Shown one piece after another: positions 10,071-54,850 of a stretch of DNA of 64,000 bases (within the stretch, counting starts at the first letter, position 1; each line of letters begins with the position of its first letter). The notes below the pieces were generated by a model that was not told the origin of the DNA, did no database searches, and worked only from the letters and a program-made list of their open reading frames with translations. The DNA is from Paenibacillus sacheonensis (GTDB lineage Bacteria; Bacillota; Bacilli; Paenibacillales; Paenibacillaceae): contig NZ_JAAAMU010000005.1 in NCBI RefSeq assembly GCF_009909195.1, forward strand, positions 124,001-188,000. The letters are read 5' to 3'. A program made the translations under genes and the position numbers.

Positions 10071-10610
10071 TCATTTCCAAATCCGGCTTATTTGGAACTT
10101 GTCCTTCTCCATAAGTAGCTCAAAAACATCAGGGTTTGTCATACCTTTCCATTCATTAAATCCGAATTCCTTTTTGAAATGGTTGATGATCAAAGAAAGC
10201 AAATTCCCATGCGTCACGACCACAATAGGATTGGCGCTGCTTTCTGCAATCTCGCGAATGACTTCAACCCCTCGATCGGCAGCTTCCGCAGAGGATTCTC
10301 CTCCAGGCAGATTGAGGTCTATATCCTCGAAGGATGCTTTCAATTTATCCATCCAGTCGGCCATGCCTTCTGAACTCAAGACTCTTTCCGACAGCCTTGG
10401 ATCTACATTTATCGGAATCCTGGATAACCTTGAAAATGGTTCAATCGAATGGATGGCCCTTAAATAAGGGCTTGAAATGATCCATTCGATATCCTTATCC
10501 ATGAGAAACTCAGTAATCGCTTCTGCCTGAGCGTGCCCCTCTAGCGTGAGCGTCGCATCCGGCTCTTGACCCTGAGCTTTACAATGCCTAATCAGATAGA
10601 TTGTCTTCAT
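10071..10610 (-). CDS. Histidine phosphatase family protein (phosphoglycerate mutase-like)
   Basis: The 179-residue protein starts MKTIYLIRHCKAQG, the RHG-type catalytic motif with RHC in place of RHG. It continues with SSPYLRAIHSIEPF, an Arg-containing phosphate pocket, and VVVTHGNLLSL, which holds the second catalytic His. The Gly-to-Cys change in RHG is seen in many small members and leaves the catalytic His intact. The start is the ATG at 10610 after GGAGGCGCTA. The longer frame to 10637 lacks a ribosome site. Substrate unknown. Confidence 0.85.
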   Translation of the reverse strand: MKTIYLIRHCKAQGQEPDATLTLEGHAQAEAITEFLMDKDIEWIISSPYLRAIHSIEPFSRLSRIPINVDPRLSERVLSSEGMADWMDKLKASFEDIDLNLPGGESSAEAADRGVEVIREIAESSANPIVVVTHGNLLSLIINHFKKEFGFNEWKGMTNPDVFELLMEKDKFQISRIWK

Positions 10611-10641
10611 TAGCGCCTCCATCATGCATTCTCGCAACCGC

Positions 10642-10803
10642 TTATTTCGTGTCCATTTTCTTCGAGATTTCTCTCAAGACGGTTAATATATTATTTAGGG
10701 CAATCAATATAAATCCCAACAGAACGTAGGCGACAATCTCGTGCGTGAAAAAAGAAATGACCCCAAGGATGCCGGCATAAATCATATATAGAAATATTTT
10801 CAT
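10642..10803 (-). CDS. 53-residue predicted membrane peptide
   Basis: This short frame encodes a 53-residue protein with two hydrophobic stretches (roughly residues 3-18 and 24-44) and a charged tail ending REISKKMDTK. It starts at ATG 10803 behind GAGGAGACACA. The stop lies 31 bases upstream of the histidine phosphatase start, so the two may be co-transcribed. I recognise no family. The topology suggests a helical hairpin in the cytoplasmic membrane. Confidence 0.6.
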   Translation of the reverse strand: MKIFLYMIYAGILGVISFFTHEIVAYVLLGFILIALNNILTVLREISKKMDTK

Positions 10804-10854
10804 TGTGTCTCCTCGTAAAACCGTAGTGGAAGCATGTTAACTGAGGGCCAGTGG

Positions 10855-10905
10855 CCAAAAGGTGAGTGGTGTTACAGGACGTTCGGGACTTGGAGTTGAT
10901 TAACA
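10855..10905. repeat. Cassette-core-like repeat, GGTGTTACAGGACGTT type
   Basis: The core GTTACAG at 10871 with flanks TGG and AGGACGTTC closely resembles TGGTGTTATAGGATGTC at 17100. It also resembles, more weakly, GGTGTTAGATGATGCC at 18073. It lies between accessory genes. The likeness is visible by eye but is short, so chance remains possible. Confidence 0.35.
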
Positions 10906-11032
10906 AATTGTTCTATATATCCGTCTAGTGTAACGATCAAATGTCTGCATTTCTGTAATCGGCTGCCATCCTATTTCAATGATATCTTCGTTTAAGTACT
11001 TTCCCTTCAATGACGACGACTGCCTGCGATAT
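10906..11032 (-). pseudogene. Possible 3' remnant of a NUDIX-like gene
   Basis: One minus-strand frame without a start reads LKGKYLNEDIIEIGWQPITE and then TFDRYTRRIYRTIC before a stop at about 10907. The text resembles the C-terminal end of a NUDIX-type hydrolase. There is no start codon, ribosome site or NUDIX box nearby, so at most a fragment is left. Low certainty. Confidence 0.3.
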
Positions 11033-11038
11033 CAAATT

Positions 11039-11521
11039 TCAAAGCCCCTTTCGAATTTGTTTCTTCAACAACATCACTTGTCCGATATGATAGGCATTAT
11101 GAATAATCAAATTAGATACGACTCCCCACCAAGGAGCATTAAAATATTCTGGAAGTTGCTGCGTAAGCTTTGCTTCATCAGATTCTTCTAAGACCGTTTT
11201 CCAATTGCCAAACACATTCTCAAGTCTACTTAAGGTTTCCTTCCAACCAAGTTCATCCGATTGATCGGAACGCAAAGAAAACGTTTCATCATTGTCGATG
11301 TCATGATTCAATACGATTTCTCCAGCCTTAAATCGCTCAAGCCATGTTTCGTTCCAATAAAGAAGATGATTCAGGATTGCCCCTATGGTTTGTTTACTTT
11401 CATTCTCAGTCGTTGCTTCTTTCACTGTTAGATCCGCCAGCATCTCCGCCAGAGGAATAAACCAGCTCTTATCGTTATAACAGGCTGTTAATTGATCGAT
11501 TAAAATGGTTTTATAGGTCAT
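11039..11521 (-). CDS. DinB family protein, copy 2
   Basis: The 160-residue protein is a DinB-like four-helix bundle. It has LADLTVKEATTENESKQTIGAILNHLLYWNETW, where the His of ILNHL is the first metal ligand, and a C-terminal NLIIHNAYHIGQVMLLKK giving the H...H pair. The start is the ATG at 11521, which has GAGGAG seven bases upstream. The longer frame to 11554 has no ribosome site. It differs strongly from the DinB copy at 8589, so the two were probably acquired separately and not by tandem duplication. Confidence 0.83.
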   Translation of the reverse strand: MTYKTILIDQLTACYNDKSWFIPLAEMLADLTVKEATTENESKQTIGAILNHLLYWNETWLERFKAGEIVLNHDIDNDETFSLRSDQSDELGWKETLSRLENVFGNWKTVLEESDEAKLTQQLPEYFNAPWWGVVSNLIIHNAYHIGQVMLLKKQIRKGL

Positions 11522-11547
11522 CCAAAACTCCTCATCTCTGACTGTAT

Positions 11548-11667
11548 TTAGCATTCTTTCGGATCATGTTCTTTTGTTCCCGATACCTGAATCGACCTAA
11601 TCATGCCAGGGTCTATAATACCTTGCTTCTTCAACGATCTCTTGGTGCCAAAATCTGCATCCTCCAT
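11548..11667 (-). CDS. 39-residue ORF with a strong ribosome site
   Basis: A minus-strand ATG at 11667 sits behind GAAGGAGGCAATCC and opens a 39-residue frame rich in Lys, Asp and Glu that stops just before the DinB gene. No family is recognised. It overlaps the 45-residue frame below in another register, so at most one is likely to be real. The ribosome site favours this one. Confidence 0.3.
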   Translation of the reverse strand: MEDADFGTKRSLKKQGIIDPGMIRSIQVSGTKEHDPKEC

Positions 11668-11734
11668 GGATTGCCTCCTTCACTCGGTTCATGAGTGTAG
11701 TAATTTCAACATCCATCCTCACGAATTCCTTCAT
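11597..11734 (-). CDS. 45-residue ORF, alternative to the overlapping frame
   Basis: This frame from ATG 11734 gives a protein-like text (EAIHGGCRFWHQEIVEEARY, ending RPWHD) but has no ribosome site. It could be the C-terminal remnant of a larger gene. It conflicts with the 39-residue frame at 11548-11667. The rest of 11735-11786 shows nothing definite. Confidence 0.3.
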   Translation of the reverse strand: MKEFVRMDVEITTLMNRVKEAIHGGCRFWHQEIVEEARYYRPWHD

Positions 11735-11786
11735 GAGTTTATAGGTTTATCTGACAATCACACTAAGACTGGCCAAAGAACGAAAG

Positions 11787-12317
11787 TCAGCGTTGGGATA
11801 TCTTCTGCAGTATAATTGCAGTAATTTTATCTGGTTCCAACTGATCGGTTTGTATATGATCATGAAACTTTTTATCCGCAAAGGCAGATACCCCGCTTCT
11901 GGTGTGCAGCTGATACCAGTGATTAAAGGTATCTCCTCGTTGTTCGATTCGTTGTCTAATCGTGTCTTCAGATGCAGTAAGACAAAAGTGAAATACCTCT
12001 TCATCAATCCTTTTAAATCCATTCAATATGTAGTCGAAATGATCAGCTTTGTATATCGTCATTGGAACAATGAGATGTTTCTTGTATCTACGTTTTAATT
12101 CTTCAGCCGTCTTTACGGTTAAGATTCTCCATAATTCAATATCTTGAAAATCATCCGTTCGTTCATTTTCGAATAGCATGTTTTCATGAAGGATCTTTCT
12201 TAACATATATCCTATTTCCTCAGGGTCAAAAATCATGCTATCCGCAATCAAAGGCTGTAACCTCTGCGCAGTCGAAGTCTTGCCGGAGCCGAAGGCTCCA
12301 TTGATCATGATGATCAC
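11787..12317 (-). CDS. TmrB-like P-loop ATP-binding protein
   Basis: The 176-residue protein starts with a Walker A loop in MINGAFGSGKTSTAQRL. It follows the order of Bacillus TmrB, a tunicamycin-resistance ATP-binding protein: DPEEIGYMLR, DFQDIELWR, LIVPMTIY, HFCLTASEDTIRQR and FHDHIQTDQL. The C-terminal extension of TmrB is missing. The start is the GTG at 12317, with AGGAG seven bases upstream. It probably acts as a kinase-like cytoplasmic enzyme. Tunicamycin resistance is only a suggestion from similarity. It closes the accessory gene block. Confidence 0.78.
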   Translation of the reverse strand: MIIMINGAFGSGKTSTAQRLQPLIADSMIFDPEEIGYMLRKILHENMLFENERTDDFQDIELWRILTVKTAEELKRRYKKHLIVPMTIYKADHFDYILNGFKRIDEEVFHFCLTASEDTIRQRIEQRGDTFNHWYQLHTRSGVSAFADKKFHDHIQTDQLEPDKITAIILQKISQR

Positions 12318-12851: not shown

Positions 12852-12874
12852 GGTGGAAATTTAATATGTATTTT

Positions 12875-12999
12875 CTTATCAAGAGCAGGTGGAGGGACAA
12901 GCCCGATGATACCCGGCAACCGACAGACCTTTGTCAACCAAAGGCATGCACGGTGCTAATTCTTGCGGAACGCTTTACGAAGCGAATCTGGGAGATAAG
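12875..12999 (+). promoter_or_regulatory. SAM-I (S-box) riboswitch aptamer
   Basis: The aptamer begins CTTATCAAGAG and runs through GGTGGAGGGAC, the kink-turn segment CCCGATGATACCCGGCAACC, GCACGGTGCTAATTC and the closing GATAAG. This is the full consensus order of S-box leaders, which bind S-adenosylmethionine and shut off methionine or cysteine genes by transcription termination. The P1 helix CTTATC/GATAAG is intact. The odd point is the lack of a recognisable methionine gene downstream. Confidence 0.95.
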
Positions 13000-13027
13000 A
13001 GCGAGGATCGATGACATGAAATCCTAT

Positions 13028-16976: not shown

Positions 16977-17125
16977 GCGTTATGTCATGTCAGGGACTTC
17001 CAAGAATCTGCCTGTAAATTCATCCCTTATCGGGATTGTTATGCGATCAAAGTAGGTGGAGTCCTTGACCGGGGGGCGAATGCCCCGATGCGTGAATATG
17101 GTGTTATAGGATGTCAGCGCCTTCT
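16977..17125. repeat. Integron-like recombination site G (two right-end cores)
   Basis: Two related right-end units occur here: GCGTTATGTCATGTCAGGGACTTC (core GTTATGT at 16979) and GTGTTATAGGATGTCAGCGCCTTC (core GTTATAG at 17103). The second is preceded by CGTGAATATG and followed by TTCGAATTACC. The same order, CGTGAATAC-GGTGTTAGATGATGCCTGCGACTTC-TTGAATTAC, is present at 18062-18104. The units flank the AT-rich gene at 17189-17857 and resemble the GTTRRRY cores of attC sites, although neither core here is a perfect GTTRRRY. Confidence 0.5.
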
Positions 17126-17188
17126 TCGAATTACCTAATGAGATTTAAATTGTCTTCATACGGGAATGAAAATTGGCATGACAAAAAC

Positions 17189-17857
17189 TCATAAAATTAT
17201 TGATTTTTTCCTCACTTCTTCAAGTAACGAGTCAACTATAGATTCAAATTTAGTCTTTATAGCATTTTTGGAGTCATTTATTAATCTTTCCAGATCTATT
17301 GATGGTACATCTACTTTAGTCATAGGCCAACGCATTCTAATTTCAAATACTGTAGAAGATACTGGTGCAAAATCGCCATGCGCAGGAGCATAGGATTTAT
17401 GATTGTAATCCACAGTTGGAAGGCTCTCATGATGGATCTGATTTCTGATACTATTTATCAAATCGAATTCATTTATTGATTTACGGTCAAATCGATAATT
17501 AAGATCGGCCTGTTCACTTAAAACTTCAAGAAAACCATCTAAATAATCAATAAAACTGTCTACATGAACTAAGTAATTCTTAAGATGCATTAGAAATTCT
17601 ACTGGTCTTATACTACTTCCAGTTGTGCGTAATTGATTAACGACTTGTTGAAGATAGCTATATTCAACATCAATAAACCGAAGAATTACCAATAGATTTG
17701 TATACCTATATTCCAATTCCTTCAAGTCCTGCGTTGCCTCAACTAAAATAAGCAATTCATCTAGCAATTCAATACATTGGTTTGCTAGTCCATTATAGTA
17801 AACGCGTTCAGTATTAAAATATTCTTTACTATTTGTAATGTCGAAAATCATAGTCAA
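17189..17857 (-). CDS. AT-rich orphan protein, possible HEPN-like motif
   Basis: The 222-residue, largely alpha-helical protein is not recognised. Near residue 140 it has LINSIRNQIHHES, which resembles the Arg-Asn...His ribonuclease motif of HEPN-type proteins, but one short motif does not establish the family. Base composition is much lower in GC than its neighbours, suggesting recent transfer. It lies as the only gene between the repeat cores at 17103 and 18075, the arrangement of a mobile gene cassette. The start is uncertain: TTG 17857 or ATG 17851, with GAGAGGA about 20 bases upstream. Confidence 0.7.
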   Translation of the reverse strand: MTMIFDITNSKEYFNTERVYYNGLANQCIELLDELLILVEATQDLKELEYRYTNLLVILRFIDVEYSYLQQVVNQLRTTGSSIRPVEFLMHLKNYLVHVDSFIDYLDGFLEVLSEQADLNYRFDRKSINEFDLINSIRNQIHHESLPTVDYNHKSYAPAHGDFAPVSSTVFEIRMRWPMTKVDVPSIDLERLINDSKNAIKTKFESIVDSLLEEVRKKSIIL

Positions 17858-17920
17858 ATCTATTATTCATTCCTCTCAAGATATATTATTTAAGGTTTTT
17901 GATGGTTTGCGCTGATTTCC

Positions 17921-18085
17921 TATAACGTTCTTGTATTCACGAACCCAAGAGGCTTAAGTGACCGTAGGGAACGGGTCGCCAGACTTAGCCTCGCAGGGCT
18001 GTCCGGCTGAATTCACCCTCGGCACTTCTACTTCGGTCCGGACCAAGGGCGCCAGCCCGCAGCGTGAATACGGTGTTAGATGATG
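17921..18085. repeat. Integron-like recombination site H (inverted-end element)
   Basis: This 165-base element starts TATAACGTTCTTGTATTCACG and ends CGTGAATACGGTGTTAGAT. The two ends are imperfect inverted copies (CGTGAATAC plus GTTAT/GTTAG). The right core GTTAGAT fits the attC consensus GTTRRRY exactly, while the left TATAAC is a near match to the inverse core. The inside is GC-rich with further short palindromes. It lies just past the 3' end of the NUDIX gene, where an attC site would be expected. Confidence 0.55.
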
Positions 18086-18107
18086 CCTGCGACTTCTTGA
18101 ATTACAC

Positions 18108-18533
18108 TCAAATGTTCTCCTCGTCTTTAAATTCAATACAAAATGGCTGCTGATCGGGATTTAAACAATACTCAATTCTCTTCCTGAAATCTCTTCAAGT
18201 TACCATACTAAGAGCTTCTTGAACTGGAAAGAATCCTGAATCCAGACTTTCTGAAGTGGTTATTAACTCCCCACCCTTGGGCCGGGCTAAAAACAGGGTA
18301 TTTACTATTGAGTTTCCAATGTTCTGAAATATTCCACAAAACTTAATGATCTCTATGTCAATTCCCGATTCCTCTTTTGTTTCTCTTACTGCAGCCTGAC
18401 TTAATGATTCTCCTACTTCAACTTGTCCCCCAGGCATCTCCCATCCTCGTCTTGGTCCTTTAACTAGTAAAAATTCACTTTTATCATTTATCACAAATGC
18501 AGCTGCGGAAACAATATGTTTAGGAGGATTCAT
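18108..18533 (-). pseudogene. NUDIX hydrolase gene interrupted by TGA
   Basis: The N-terminal 112 residues are a clear NUDIX domain. GGQVEVGESLSQAAVRETKE continues through EESGIDIE to form the NUDIX box (GX5EX7REUXEEXGU), and it is preceded by LLVKGPRRGWEMPG. The frame meets TGA at 18195-18197, directly after ALSMVT. Reading on in the same frame gives RDFRKRIEYCLNPDQQPF and IEFKDEENI before a TGA at 18108, which looks like the missing C-terminal helix. The TGA probably replaces a Trp codon. The truncated protein still contains the whole NUDIX box and might fold. Minus-strand ATG at 18533 with AGGAG upstream. Confidence 0.75.
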
Positions 18534-18692
18534 TGTTTTGCTCCTTTAATCAGTTTTTAGTTTCCAGTGGTTTTCATCCCTTTTATTTTAGTCTTCTAGC
18601 AGGTTTCATCTAACGTCTTTTTTACGTATTTCGCTAACTTTCACACAGTAGAATGTTTACGTAATTCCAACGGTCACTCGCAATGGGGGTAT
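18534..18692. repeat. Left-end-type half site next to the recombinase (possible attI analogue)
   Basis: TTTCATCTAACGTCTTTTTTACGTATTTC near 18604-18632 aligns with the left end of site H (TTTCCTATAACGTTCTTGTATTCAC) and carries a perfect inverse core ATCTAAC at 18608. A second TATTCACG lies at 18690, at the original 3' end of the recombinase gene. Only left-type ends are seen, so it is not a complete attC-like element. Confidence 0.4.
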
Positions 18693-19816
18693 TCACGTAC
18701 TCGCTCCCGCATCCTCCATACGATCTAACGGACTTTTGATCTTTCTTATATCCCTCGTGCTAACGTGCGTATACTTCTCGGTCGTGCGAAGATGCTAATG
18801 CCCGAGCAGTTCTTGAATATAGCGAATATCGATGCCGCTTTCCAGCAGATGCGTAGCGAATGAATGACGGAGAACATGCAGACTAACCGGCTTATGGACA
18901 CCTGAACGAGCAAGGGCCTGCTCGAACAGCTTTTGGACGGTGCGCTCCGTGAGATGCTTTCCTTCGTACTGGCCGGGAAAGAGCCAATCTTGCGGCTTTT
19001 CCCGCTCCACGTAGTGTTGGACGACTGCATAAGCTGCGTCGGACAATAACGTCTGCCTGTCCTTGCGCCCCTTGCCTTGACGGAGACGAAGTGTTTTTCG
19101 CTCGCGGTCGAAGTCGCTTAGGCGCAGCCGCACGACTTCGCTTACCCTCAAGCCGGAGGAATAGGTAATATACATAATTGCCCGGTGCTTCGGGTTCTCG
19201 AAAGAGCGAAGAATCTGCATGACCTCGGATTGCGACAATACATGCGGCAGCTTCTGTTCCCTCTTCGGTCGAACGTACGAAGTGGAAGTCATGGTCTCTC
19301 CCAGCACGCGGCTGCTGAAGAACTTGACCGCACTCAACGTTTGATTGACATCGGAGTGCGATGAGCCGCGCCCCAGCATATGCAGCGAATATTTCGCAAT
19401 TGATTGGGCATCTTCGTCAAGATGCTGTTCCTTCAAAAACCGGTAATAACATCCACCTGGCTGCAATACGCCTTCACCGTCTTCAGACTATACCCCCGAA
19501 GCGCCATCGACTGACGAAGCCGGTGCTCATGCTCGGCATCTCAACGATAGCTGATCTCTTCGACCGGCTCCATCGGTTCCCATTCCTCTAACGCCGGACA
19601 CTCTTCCACGAGCTCCGCATCGATATCCACGTCAGCCCGGAGAAACATCTCTTTCAGCTGCTCCAGCGCAAGCAGCGTATAGGGGATGAACCACGTCTTC
19701 GACGCAGGATGCCATCGTCTGCCGTCGATGGATCTGATCGCTTTCACGATCGACGCTTCGTACGCAAACGTAACGGCAAGGCAGGTTTCATCTTCTTTCG
19801 CTAACCGAATCTTCAT
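18693..19816 (-). pseudogene. Tyrosine recombinase/integrase with N-terminal extension, three lesions
   Basis: A 91-residue N-terminal piece (19541-19816; IDGRRWHPASKTWFIPYT, HARP-like in look) ends at TGA 19541. The same frame then reads HEHRLRQSMALRGYSLKTVK, a SAM-like core-binding start. A frameshift near 19452 leads into YYRFLKEQ and the catalytic domain (18795-19466), with SGLRVSEV (first Arg) and HVLRHSFATHLLESG (H..R). TAG at 18795 interrupts IQELLGH-stop-HLRTTEKYTHV, so the tyrosine nucleophile in EKYTHV is lost from the product. The gene would have encoded about 370 residues. No IntI-specific insertion is visible. It lies at the edge of the cassette-like repeats and probably once mobilised them. 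Confidence 0.82.
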
Positions 19817-23092: not shown

Positions 23093-23114
23093 GCTGGCGC
23101 ACCTCCGCTGTCTA

Positions 23115-24278
23115 TTACAAGCTTGGACCGATCCGGTTGATGCTGAATTCCGTATGCCCCAGCACCTCCGCCTTCGTCCATTTCCCTTCCGCAACGTCCA
23201 AGATCTCCTGCCATATCCGTTCGCCCGCTTGACCCAGGCTGACGCTGCCGTCCAGCATGTCGCTGACATCCACGTCCATGTTATCCTCCATGCGCCGGAA
23301 CATCATCTGGTTGCCCGTAATCTTGATGACCGGCACGACCGCTGCGCCCGTCGGCGTACCGCGGCCCGTCGTGAAGCAGACGATGTGCGCGCCGCCGGCC
23401 GCCATGCCCGATACGCACTCGATGTCGTTGCCGGGCGAATCCATGAAGTACAGCCCATGATCCGGAATGCTCTCGGCGTATTCGATGACGCCCTTGATCG
23501 GCGCCGTTCCGCATTTGCTGATGCAGCCGAGGGACTTCTCTTCGATAGTGGACAAACCGCCGGCAATATTGCCCGGGCTTGGATTGCCGCCGCGCATGTC
23601 GGCCCCCATCCGCTCGACCTCTTTCTCGAAGCGATCCACGATGTAGTACAGCTTGTCCGAAATTTCCTGCGTCACGCAGCGCTCCGCAAGCAGATGCTCC
23701 GCGCCGATGATTTCCGTCGTTTCGCCGATGACGATCGAACCGCCTTCGCCGATGAGCGCATCCGCAGCCACGCCAAGAGCGGGATTGGAAGCCAGGCCCG
23801 ACGTTGCGTCTGATCCGCCGCATTTGACGGCAACCTTCAATTTATTCAACGGAACCGGCACTTTTTCCTGCTTCTCGAGATCGGCCATCAATCGTTTCGC
23901 CACTTCCGTGCCGTACGAGATCGCTTTGACCGAGCCGCCGACGGATTGAATGTCGAATACTTCCACGGGTTTGCCGGTCTGGCGGATATCCGCTGCCAGC
24001 GCGATCGGATCGACGACCTCGCAGCCGAGGCTGATAATCAAGACGGCGCCGACATTCGGATTCTTCCCCGTGCCCGCGAGCATCTCGAACGTGCGGTCTT
24101 TGTCCGCGCCGATCTGGCTGCAGCCATGCTGATGCGGAATCGCAACCGCCCCCGGCACCATCTGCATGATCCGGCTGCACACCTGATTGGAGCAAATGAC
24201 AGTCGGAATGATCAGCAGATGATTGCGGATGCCGATTTCGCCGTTCGGCCGTTCATAACCCATAATGGTACGTTCCAT
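23115..24278 (-). CDS. UxaA/GarD family dehydratase, large subunit
   Basis: The 387-residue protein is the C-terminal catalytic part of altronate/galactarate dehydratase-type enzymes, which remove water from sugar acids using Fe2+. Recognisable motifs are GYERPNGEIGIRNHLLIIPT, PHQHGCSQ with a metal-ligand His/Cys pair, VAVKCGGSDATSG and SPGNDIECVSGMAAGGAHI. The first codon directly abuts the stop of the small SAF-domain subunit, as in split UxaA enzymes. With the Gfo dehydrogenase downstream it indicates uronate or aldonate breakdown. The exact acid is undetermined. Confidence 0.9.
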   Translation of the reverse strand: MERTIMGYERPNGEIGIRNHLLIIPTVICSNQVCSRIMQMVPGAVAIPHQHGCSQIGADKDRTFEMLAGTGKNPNVGAVLIISLGCEVVDPIALAADIRQTGKPVEVFDIQSVGGSVKAISYGTEVAKRLMADLEKQEKVPVPLNKLKVAVKCGGSDATSGLASNPALGVAADALIGEGGSIVIGETTEIIGAEHLLAERCVTQEISDKLYYIVDRFEKEVERMGADMRGGNPSPGNIAGGLSTIEEKSLGCISKCGTAPIKGVIEYAESIPDHGLYFMDSPGNDIECVSGMAAGGAHIVCFTTGRGTPTGAAVVPVIKITGNQMMFRRMEDNMDVDVSDMLDGSVSLGQAGERIWQEILDVAEGKWTKAEVLGHTEFSINRIGPSL

Positions 24279-42333: not shown

Positions 42334-44052
42334 TCAAAACAGGAAGTAACGCTGCGCCATCGGCAGCACCTCCGCCGGCTCGCATACGGCCGGAACGCCG
42401 TCGACCTTCACTTCGTACGTCTCCGGGTTCACCTCGATGACGGGCGTGGCATCGTTATGGATCATATCCTTCTTCGTCACGCTGCGGCAGCCGCGCACGG
42501 GCTCGATGCGTTTGGCCAGCCCCAGCTCCTGCGCGATCCCGCGGTCATAGGCCGCCTGGGAGACGAAGGTGATGGAGCTGCTCGCAGTCGCCTTGCCGAA
42601 ACCGCCGAACATCATCCGGCCGAAGACCGGCTGCGGCGTCGGGATGGATGCATTGGGATCCCCCATCTGCGCATACGCGATCATGCCGCCTTTGAGCACC
42701 AGGTCCGGCTTAACGCCGAAGAACATCGGACTCCAGATTACGAGATCCGCGAATTTGCCCGGCTCGATCGATCCGACCAGATGCGAGATCCCATGCGTGA
42801 TCGCAGGGTTGATGGTGTATTTTGCAATGTACCGTTTGATGCGATAATTGTCCGCCTCTTCGGAGGTGTCCGGCGCCAGCGGTCCGCGCTGCTTCTTCAT
42901 CTTGTCGGCGGTCTGCCACGTGCGGATGATGACTTCGCCTACGCGCCCCATGGCCTGGGAATCGGAGCTCAGCATGCTGAACACGCCCATGTCGTGCAGG
43001 ATATCTTCCGCCGCGATCGTCTCCGGCCTAATCCGCGAATCCGCGAAAGCGACATCCTCCGGAATGCGGCTGTCCAAGTGATGGCAAACCATCAGCATGT
43101 CCAAGTGTTCTTCGATCGTGTTCACCGTAAAGGGGCGGGTCGGATTCGTCGAGGACGGAAGCACGTTAGGCTCGCCCGCGGCGCGAATGATATCGGGAGC
43201 ATGTCCGCCTCCGGCGCCTTCCGTATGATACGTATGAATCGTGCGTCCCTTGAATGCCGCGAGCGTATCCTCGAGGAACCCGGCTTCGTTCAACGTATCC
43301 GTATGAATGGCTACCTGCACGTCGTACCGGTCCGCCACCGTCAAGCACGTGTCGATCGCAGCCGGCGTCGTCCCCCAGTCTTCATGCAGCTTCAGGCCGA
43401 TCGCCCCCGCTTCCACCTGCTCGATCAGCGGCTCGGCGAATGACGCATTGCCCTTGCCCGTGAAGCCCATATTCATGGGAAAGGCTTCCGCCGCCTCCAG
43501 CATGCGCCGCATATGCCATGCCCCGGGCGTGCAAGTCGTGGCGTTCGTGCCTGTCGCCGGCCCCGTCCCTCCGCCGATCATCGTCGTCACGCCGGAAGAC
43601 AGCGCGGTTTCGATCTGCTGCGGGCAGATATAATGGATATGCGAATCGATGCCGCCGGCGGTTACGATCTTGCCTTCGCCCGCGATGACTTCCGTGCTGG
43701 CGCCAACGATCATATGGGGCATGACGCCATCCATAATATCGGGATTGCCAGCTTTGCCGATGCCGACGATGACGCCGTCCCGAATGCCGATATCCGCCTT
43801 GACGATTCCCCAGTGGTCGATGATGACGGCGTTCGTGATCAGCGTATCCAGCACGCCTTCGCTGCGCAGCGCGCCGCTCGACTGTCCCATGCCGTCGCGG
43901 ATGACTTTGCCGCCGCCGAACTTGCACTCGTCGCCGTACACCGTATGATCATGCTCGATCCGAGCCCATAGTTCCGTATCCGCAAGCCTTACGGCATCGC
44001 CGGCCGTTGGGCCGAACATGGCCGCGTAGCTGCTTCTGTCCATCGTGCTCAT
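42334..44052 (-). CDS. ureC: Urease alpha subunit UreC
   Basis: The 572-residue protein is the nickel-containing catalytic subunit. It has [10 protein letters not shown] (two metal His), GLKLHEDWG with the Lys that becomes carbamylated, [25 protein letters not shown] and [10 protein letters not shown] (catalytic His flap). It splits urea into ammonia and carbamate in the cytoplasm. The ATG at 44052 overlaps the ureB stop as ATGA and has GGGAGGGAGA upstream. Confidence 0.98.
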
Positions 44053-54631: not shown

Positions 54632-54844
54632 AAAAAAAAGGGGTTGCCCCCTTTTCATTCATAAGTTACCCGCCATGCCGTCCGACTTGCTTGTTTCTGA
54701 ACCCGCTCTCGCAGGTGGGTGGCCGCAGAAACGTTTTTGAGATCCCTTTTCGAGGGCCTGTCAGCCGCGTTTCAATGTTAGTCTCCCTAAAAACAGCCAT
54801 TGGTTCAAAACAAGTGATAAGCCGTAACGCACACCGCAGGATGT
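54632..54844 (-). ncRNA. Structured small RNA, probably 6S RNA
   Basis: A promoter (TTTACT, 17 bases, TATAAT at 54851-54866) points at a non-coding stretch of about 213 bases. It ends in a terminator hairpin AAGGGG-TTG-CCCCCTT with an eight-U tail. The 5' part CTTGTTTTGAACC pairs with GGTTCAGAAACAAG in the 3' half, and GTTAC near the start pairs with GTAAC near the end. This gives the long interrupted rod typical of 6S RNA, which mimics an open promoter and binds RNA polymerase. It has no ribosome site or coding frame. Assignment to 6S rests on size and fold, not on a covariance search. Confidence 0.55.
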
Positions 54845-54850
54845 ATTGCT

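Follow-up and report, generated by a model that had tools for sequence, protein, structure and literature searches.

The closest described systems are the classical IntI integrons, among them the Vibrio superintegron and those of classes 1-3; their attC sites are given as 57-142 nt long, with an extrahelical G that stays unpaired in the L'' box (PMC2727003). According to one survey, integrons abound in Gamma- and Betaproteobacteria and are extremely rare in Firmicutes, whose complete genomes gave a single complete integron, in Limnochorda pilosa, together with a few clusters of attC sites lacking integron integrases (CALINs) (PMC9024848). Here we analyse a stretch of 64,000 nt from Paenibacillus sacheonensis (NCBI RefSeq assembly GCF_009909195.1, contig NZ_JAAAMU010000005.1, positions 124,001 to 188,000), called the window below, in which the sequence very probably represents a degenerate integron-like platform made up of a recombinase, an attI-like site and cassettes with attC-like sites. 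We are confident that the platform belongs to an integron-like gene-cassette system with a different recombinase and different sites, one that appears to work like an integron and yet falls outside the classical IntI integrons by their defining tests. The attI site beside the recombinase, the head-to-tail cassettes, the attC-like sites with a G/TT core, the small and varied cargo including GNAT and NUDIX proteins and the C-terminal SPLD motif of the recombinase, as in IntI1, are all shared with classical integrons. An earlier sequence-only reading of this DNA had proposed a cassette system outside the known integrons, and that proposal is now supported by the fold of the sites, by their recurrence and by cassette-wise junctions.

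On the minus strand of the window the elements follow one another in the order recombinase N-terminal piece, catalytic piece, attI-like site, NUDIX cassette 1, attC-like site, cassette 2, decayed site and remnant cassette end:
19541..19816, minus strand: recombinase N-terminal piece, apart from the catalytic piece (open reading frame, ORF, of 91 aa)
18795..19466, minus strand: tyrosine recombinase catalytic piece with an in-frame TAG at its end (PF00589, E 1.7e-37)
18613..18640, minus strand: attI-like site, GCGAAATACGTAAAAAAGACG, then the first cassette base, T, at 18613
17926..18613, minus strand: cassette 1, whole and NUDIX-bearing (end pairing at 14/17 positions)
18195..18533, minus strand: NUDIX hydrolase gene of cassette 1 (PF00293, E 7.4e-19)
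17917..18083, minus strand: intact attC-like site of cassette 1, R''-L''...L'-R' (136.9 bits with site model R1)
16998..17925, minus strand: cassette 2 up to the decayed site, its true 3' end lost (end pairing at 15/17 positions)
17189..17857, minus strand: AT-rich gene of cassette 2, 222 aa (GC 0.317 against 0.539 for the window)
16998..17111, minus strand: decayed attC-like site of cassette 2 (21.2 bits, E 0.0007)
16979..16995, minus strand: what is left of another cassette's 3' end (GTTATGTCATGTCAGGG as read on the plus strand; third copy of the D1 repeat, 60% identity)

Both site elements named in the sequence-only reading are present. On the minus strand the window has two exact copies of the pattern TAACACC[G/A]TATTCACG (18063-18078 and 17091-17106). 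If up to 3 mismatches are allowed there are four matches, a number that none of 100 shuffles attained (mean 0.47). One of these elements, drawn at 16977-17125, proved to be two things, namely the decayed site at 16998-17111 and the remnant cassette end at 16979-16995. The 'right end' that the elements were said to share is also there, but beyond the core it consists in part of a cassette-specific arm and in part of a conserved AAG-type box. The covariance model R1 was built from 24 sites, and the genomes searched with it include the sources of the training sites. Because 17917-18083 is itself one of the 24 training rows, its score in the window is partly by construction; the decayed site is not among these rows, lacks GTTA on the L'-R' side in the alignment, and is followed by a next-best window match of only 7.3 bits (E 2.4).

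The sites recur widely among the relatives. In a search of the kind that the sequence-only reading had suggested, R1 matches were found in 91 of 146 genomes of one order, distributed over 33 of 48 genera, and a fuzzy pattern for the R''-L'' end is present in 92 of the same 146, over which the reversed control pattern gave 3 matches. An explicit two-part rule recovered 450 sites from 722,087 bases of fetched arrays and 1 from the reversed sequence, the largest of these arrays holding 72 sites. A pattern scan of named genomes gave at least 120 stretches; among the matches listed are Paenibacillus, Cohnella, Fontibacillus, Gorillibacterium and Saccharibacillus, as well as Brevibacillus panacihumi, Tepidibacillus decaturensis and Bacillus sp. 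FJAT-27264. The window's own genome carries one more site of this family elsewhere, of 75.4 bits (G000:C5:128281-128477; L270 8282-8478).

The aligned sites share a branched consensus fold in their interior, with compensatory changes in 16 of 26 pairs. The expectation of attC-like folding is thus borne out by covariation, but elements folded one at a time gave weak to moderate results (z scores: decayed site -0.21, intact site -1.90, attI region 0.57), so that single-sequence folding could not settle the question by itself. In 351 of 450 sites, as located by a site finder that used ungapped L boxes, 8 or 9 of the 9 positions of L'' pair with L' and there is no bulge; the consensus of the 24 aligned sites likewise has none. 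From TAAC to GTTA the sites exceed 142 nt in 365 cases and not in 85. They therefore differ from classical attC in being mostly longer than 142 nt, in the conserved branched interior and in L boxes paired without a bulge. The R-box consensus of classical integrons, GTTRRRY, fits only 71 of 349 unique cassette starts, the usual core being GTTA.

The cassettes themselves are marked by a pairing between their own two ends. In 349 unique end pairs the first 17 bases (TTANNNGAAANNNNNNN) are complementary to the cassette's own 3' end, with 10.3 of 14 positions paired over positions 3-16 against 5.65 after shuffling, and only 3% pairing at position 9 and a background level at position 17. Across 382 array junctions, pairing between neighbours is near the shuffled level. 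In the window, the arms of cassette 2 lie at 17925-17909 (5') and 17104-17120 (3'). A classical array of 57 cassettes from Vibrio sp. HDW18 shows own-end pairing over about ten positions and no mismatch at position 9; in the same vein, the 17-nt arms with their fixed position-9 mismatch compare with arms of about 9-11 nt in classical attC, according to PMC2727003. By DNA energies the bottom strand is predicted to be the more stable one in 132 of 150 circle junctions, sampled from 347 cassettes of this system. Together, 410 cassettes lie head to tail with a site at each 3' end, and the longest ORF runs along the array in 299 of them.

Junctions between cassettes suggest exchange of whole units. 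In 205 pairs of the same cassette with different upstream neighbours, chosen for high cassette-side identity and with cassettes reused, identity is 99-100% over 30 bases from TTA and lower upstream of ACG; where the downstream neighbours differ (105 pairs, selected in the same way), it is 85-100% over the 30 bases to ACGTTA and lower after. The break in homology is resolved to the invariant hexanucleotide ACG/TTA. The cassette-wise change at the core that the sequence-only reading had envisaged is reflected in junctions inside this hexanucleotide, also for the NUDIX cassette of the window. Here that cassette follows attI; in P. sediminis, at 80.9% identity over 650 bp, and in P. alkalitolerans it carries the same arm TTAGATGAAACCTGC and comes after attC L'-R' ends. 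In P. selenitireducens it stands behind an attC-type end with one arm base changed, and in G132 it has a different arm, while in Cohnella kolymensis and in G002 the NUDIX gene is recognisable and our script placed no matching cassette start. Relatives of the NUDIX gene with 72-85% identity, plus weaker ones, are present in other fetched array loci. In six relatives an araC-oxidoreductase pair is found without a recombinase in the fetched stretch, and the right-flank genes are not there.

The cargo is highly diverse: 314 cassette proteins of at least 80 aa form 276 clusters, of which 246 have a single member, in agreement with the earlier suggestion that the sites should recur beside different genes. 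Among 140 sampled cassette proteins, the best 25 of 77 families include Acetyltransf_1 (11), NUDIX (4), RVT_1 (2) and APH, a phosphotransferase family (2). The Drt8 defence model was matched by 2 of the 140 (best E 2.3e-145), and many other reverse-transcriptase models likewise have 2 matches each. The AT-rich gene of cassette 2 gave no family match in Pfam, NCBIfam or PADLOC. In the array of genome G111, a recurring cassette type ends in TGCGGGTAGCTCAGCTGGCCATCACTTAAC, a 3' end that by eye looks like the beginning of a tRNA gene.

The half site at 18604-18632, taken in the sequence-only reading as a possible analogue of attI, fits a recurrent pattern. For 47 of 55 recombinase match ends, the first cassette start, recognised by own-arm pairing, lies within 1.6 kb. 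After dropping repeats and offsets above 300 bp, 32 unique recombinase-proximal junctions remained, the window being one of them, which lie 64-277 bp past the match end and have a consensus near CGAAGTTCGTAAATAAGANG followed by TTA, the G before TTA being imposed by the search. The window junction, GCGAAATACGTAAAAAAGACG and then TTA, fits this consensus.

The recombinase of the window is decayed, as had been supposed, into an N-terminal ORF and a catalytic ORF with an in-frame TAG. Homology of the catalytic piece runs past the TAG to about 18705, and the window recombinase, with 1 TAG inside, is 54% identical to that of G111, which is intact (377 aa) and lies directly ahead of its array. The 91-aa N-terminal piece is 29-39% identical to the N-terminal part of other array recombinases, and the intact relatives carry the extra N-terminal region. 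The extra domain proposed earlier is therefore present as a region; its HARP match in the window piece, however, is weak (E 0.0056, under the Pfam cut-off), and the intact G111 protein has no HARP match. With a broken recombinase and a decayed site, the copy in the window is probably inactive.

Recombinase and sites go together across genomes. With the G111 protein as query (E<=1e-50) the recombinase was found in 45 of 146 genomes, and R1 sites occur in 44 of these 45 compared with 47 of the remaining 101 (Fisher p 1e-10, a value that ignores relatedness). Of 30 fetched recombinase loci, 21 have a site within the stretch, the best one lying downstream and on the same strand; two of these sites are training rows. 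Among the nine site-less loci, seven have a contig end within 750 bp, and the remaining two are L080, a stretch with masked bases, and L088, which has in-frame stops. The recombinase is codirectional with its array, unlike the classical intI gene, which is usually divergent from it.

These proteins differ from IntI in having no IntI-specific insertion and in their extra N-terminal region. Between two catalytic motifs there are 59-61 residues in all 22 array recombinases that could be measured (2 further array rows and IntI2 were not measurable), compared with 100 and 101 in IntI1 and a Vibrio IntI, as the sequence-only reading had anticipated; the region of the insertion itself has 21 residues compared with 63 in IntI4. 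The IntI family model TIGR02249 (cut-off 265 bits) is not passed by the G111 protein (213.9) or by the window piece (156). The Xer recombinases XerA, XerC and XerD belong to the same fold family. The G111 protein is just above the XerA cut-off (NF040815; 223.8 against 220 bits, with 174.6 for the broken window piece) and far under those for XerD (191.1 of 329.6) and XerC (180.9 of 335.15).

A tree of 42 proteins places the array recombinases together with two Chryseobacterium proteins (94/97), in a group that stands beside IntI and the IS91-partner recombinases (94/83), all inside a group supported at 96/99. Other tyrosine recombinases from G000, G111 and G132 fall outside this clade of 30 (96/99). 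The IS91-partner tyrosine recombinases, known here from Aromatoleum and Rhizobium with relatives in Microvirga and Sphingomonas, are near both IntI and the new recombinases, and have an SPLD-type C-terminus in the three measured. They cluster with IntI (94/83) and not with the new lineage, and in the Rhizobium and Aromatoleum loci an IS91 family transposase comes directly after the recombinase. The exact sister relation to IntI needs wider sampling, because the tree has only three IntI proteins and two rows elsewhere with very long branches.

In the phylum, 398 genomes gave R1 matches (E<=1e-6) in 14, four of them of the window's own family, and the recombinase (E<=1e-50) in 33; some of the genomes outside the class have site variants of their own. 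For instance, G421 has six R1 matches (23.6-52 bits) downstream of a stop-free recombinase 46% identical to that of G111. At Bacillota recombinase loci outside the class the arm signature is present in 11 of 15, with 28 arm pairs matching at 11 or more of 12 positions and none in reversed or in shuffled sequence. Position 9 is mismatched in all 28 pairs and position 8 in 15. Ten matches in the phylum are weak, and among the stretches of seven of them tblastn found the recombinase in two only, L263 and L264. On plasmid NZ_CP041688.1 of Chryseobacterium sp. SNU WT5 (L236, 7932-16972) a related recombinase is followed by four inverted-arm repeats of about 282 nt, which sit between mostly codirectional genes. 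Arm pairing there consists of one pair at 9/12, within what the control allows, and the locus may be a Bacteroidota array of integron-like kind that uses a different type of site.

Taken together, we consider it fairly likely that these loci represent a second, separately evolved integron lineage, with insertion-free recombinases bearing an extra N-terminal region and 17-nt cassette-specific arms with a fixed mismatch, present in Bacillota well beyond Paenibacillaceae and reaching Bacteroidota with the Chryseobacterium plasmid. What comparison shows is a gene for a tyrosine recombinase with an extra N-terminal region, followed on the same strand and mostly after 64-277 bp by an attI-like site and the cassette array. 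The recombinase would excise cassettes as circles and re-insert them at attI or attC, and its substrate would be a folded single strand, probably the bottom one. Excision and re-insertion by way of a folded single strand are suggested because the cassette ends are complementary to each other and not to those of array neighbours.

It might be argued that these are classical attC sites, as in CALINs, that are served in trans by an ordinary IntI, the adjoining recombinase being incidental. The GTT core and the own-end pairing are indeed common to the classical array, a few CALINs are reported from Firmicutes (PMC9024848), and Firmicutes are listed with the phyla that have integrons (PMC8618304). 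This explanation is nevertheless very unlikely: recombinase and sites are linked and co-occur, the sites differ by the fixed position-9 mismatch, the length and the L box, and R1 (E<=1) gave no match in L232, a 50-kb stretch that opens with about 11 kb of the classical array of Vibrio sp. HDW18. A search for the IntI family returned none over the cut-off in the 146 genomes, and likewise none in 14 control genomes, so that it weighs on neither side. The branched, covarying interior (16/26 pairs) would also suit structured RNA elements or transcription signals spread by homologous recombination. Rfam, however, gave no match at the window sites and, at E<=1, none fitting the sites in three array loci; each end of a cassette is complementary to the opposite end of that cassette, at a distance of hundreds of bases, and not to the neighbour; and homology breaks at one fixed hexanucleotide with cassette-precise junctions, all of which makes RNA elements a highly improbable explanation.

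Inverted ends on each unit and IS66-type transposases in the G111 array could further be taken to mean that the units are transposon-like, with the 17-nt arms as terminal inverted repeats moved by a transposase. We find this hardly credible, as the units stand head to tail and share one site per junction, their proteins are too diverse (276 clusters from 314) for a common transposase, and a tyrosine recombinase heads the array. Chance resemblance in the window had some appeal in that the likeness was first noted by eye and one site is weak, at 21.2 bits. It is refuted by the recurrence of the sites and has a negligible probability, given the shuffle control, the R1 matches, the 91 of 146 genomes, the 450 sites against 1 and the NUDIX cassette in other species.

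Several observations weigh against the integron-like reading, which we retain. All the evidence for it is comparative. R1 is positive in 47 genomes that have no recombinase at E<=1e-50, and G095, a recombinase genome, has no R1 site, nor is there one on its recombinase contig (L271, G095:C112), which has in-frame stops. L070 has a weak R1 match upstream (19 bits), and at least one of the 32 attI junctions, that of G091, has upstream sequence of attC type. Of the 410 cassettes, 43 lack an ORF of 50 aa, and 68 have their longest ORF in antisense orientation. The 205 and 105 junction pairs are non-independent, an exact empty site was not found in the window's relatives, and a few of the 28 arm pairs outside the class are alternative partners of one end.

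If active, the system would mean that Gram-positive bacteria hold a large and unexplored reservoir of mobile genes, with sites in 91 of the 146 genomes searched in one order. Larger versions with dozens of cassettes are present in many Paenibacillus relatives, where integrons are reported to be extremely rare. If the second lineage is true, capture of cassettes as folded single strands would not need the IntI-specific domain, and these arrays would provide a natural test of that domain's role. An IntI call by IntegronFinder is a tyrosine-recombinase profile overlapping an IntI-specific-domain profile (PMC9668308); the latter being needed, such arrays would therefore not be called complete integrons. 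Among the open-access papers in PMC that were listed, none describes such a system in its title or the opening of its abstract.

Among plasmid records, NZ_CP051681.1 of Cohnella herbarum (L238) has sites at 10506-12168 and 23105-23427, near three other tyrosine recombinases, and positions 1-8000 of L043, a piece of an array, matched 196 plasmid records, 143 of them from Enterococcus. A phage vehicle is not indicated: the exact two-part site pattern had 0 matches in IMG/VR, and none of 60 distant recombinase matches in phage records covers 80% of the query. Elsewhere in the window, Rfam matches mark a SAM riboswitch (12873-13001), a 5' ureB sRNA (43605-43900) and a 6S RNA (54663-54845).

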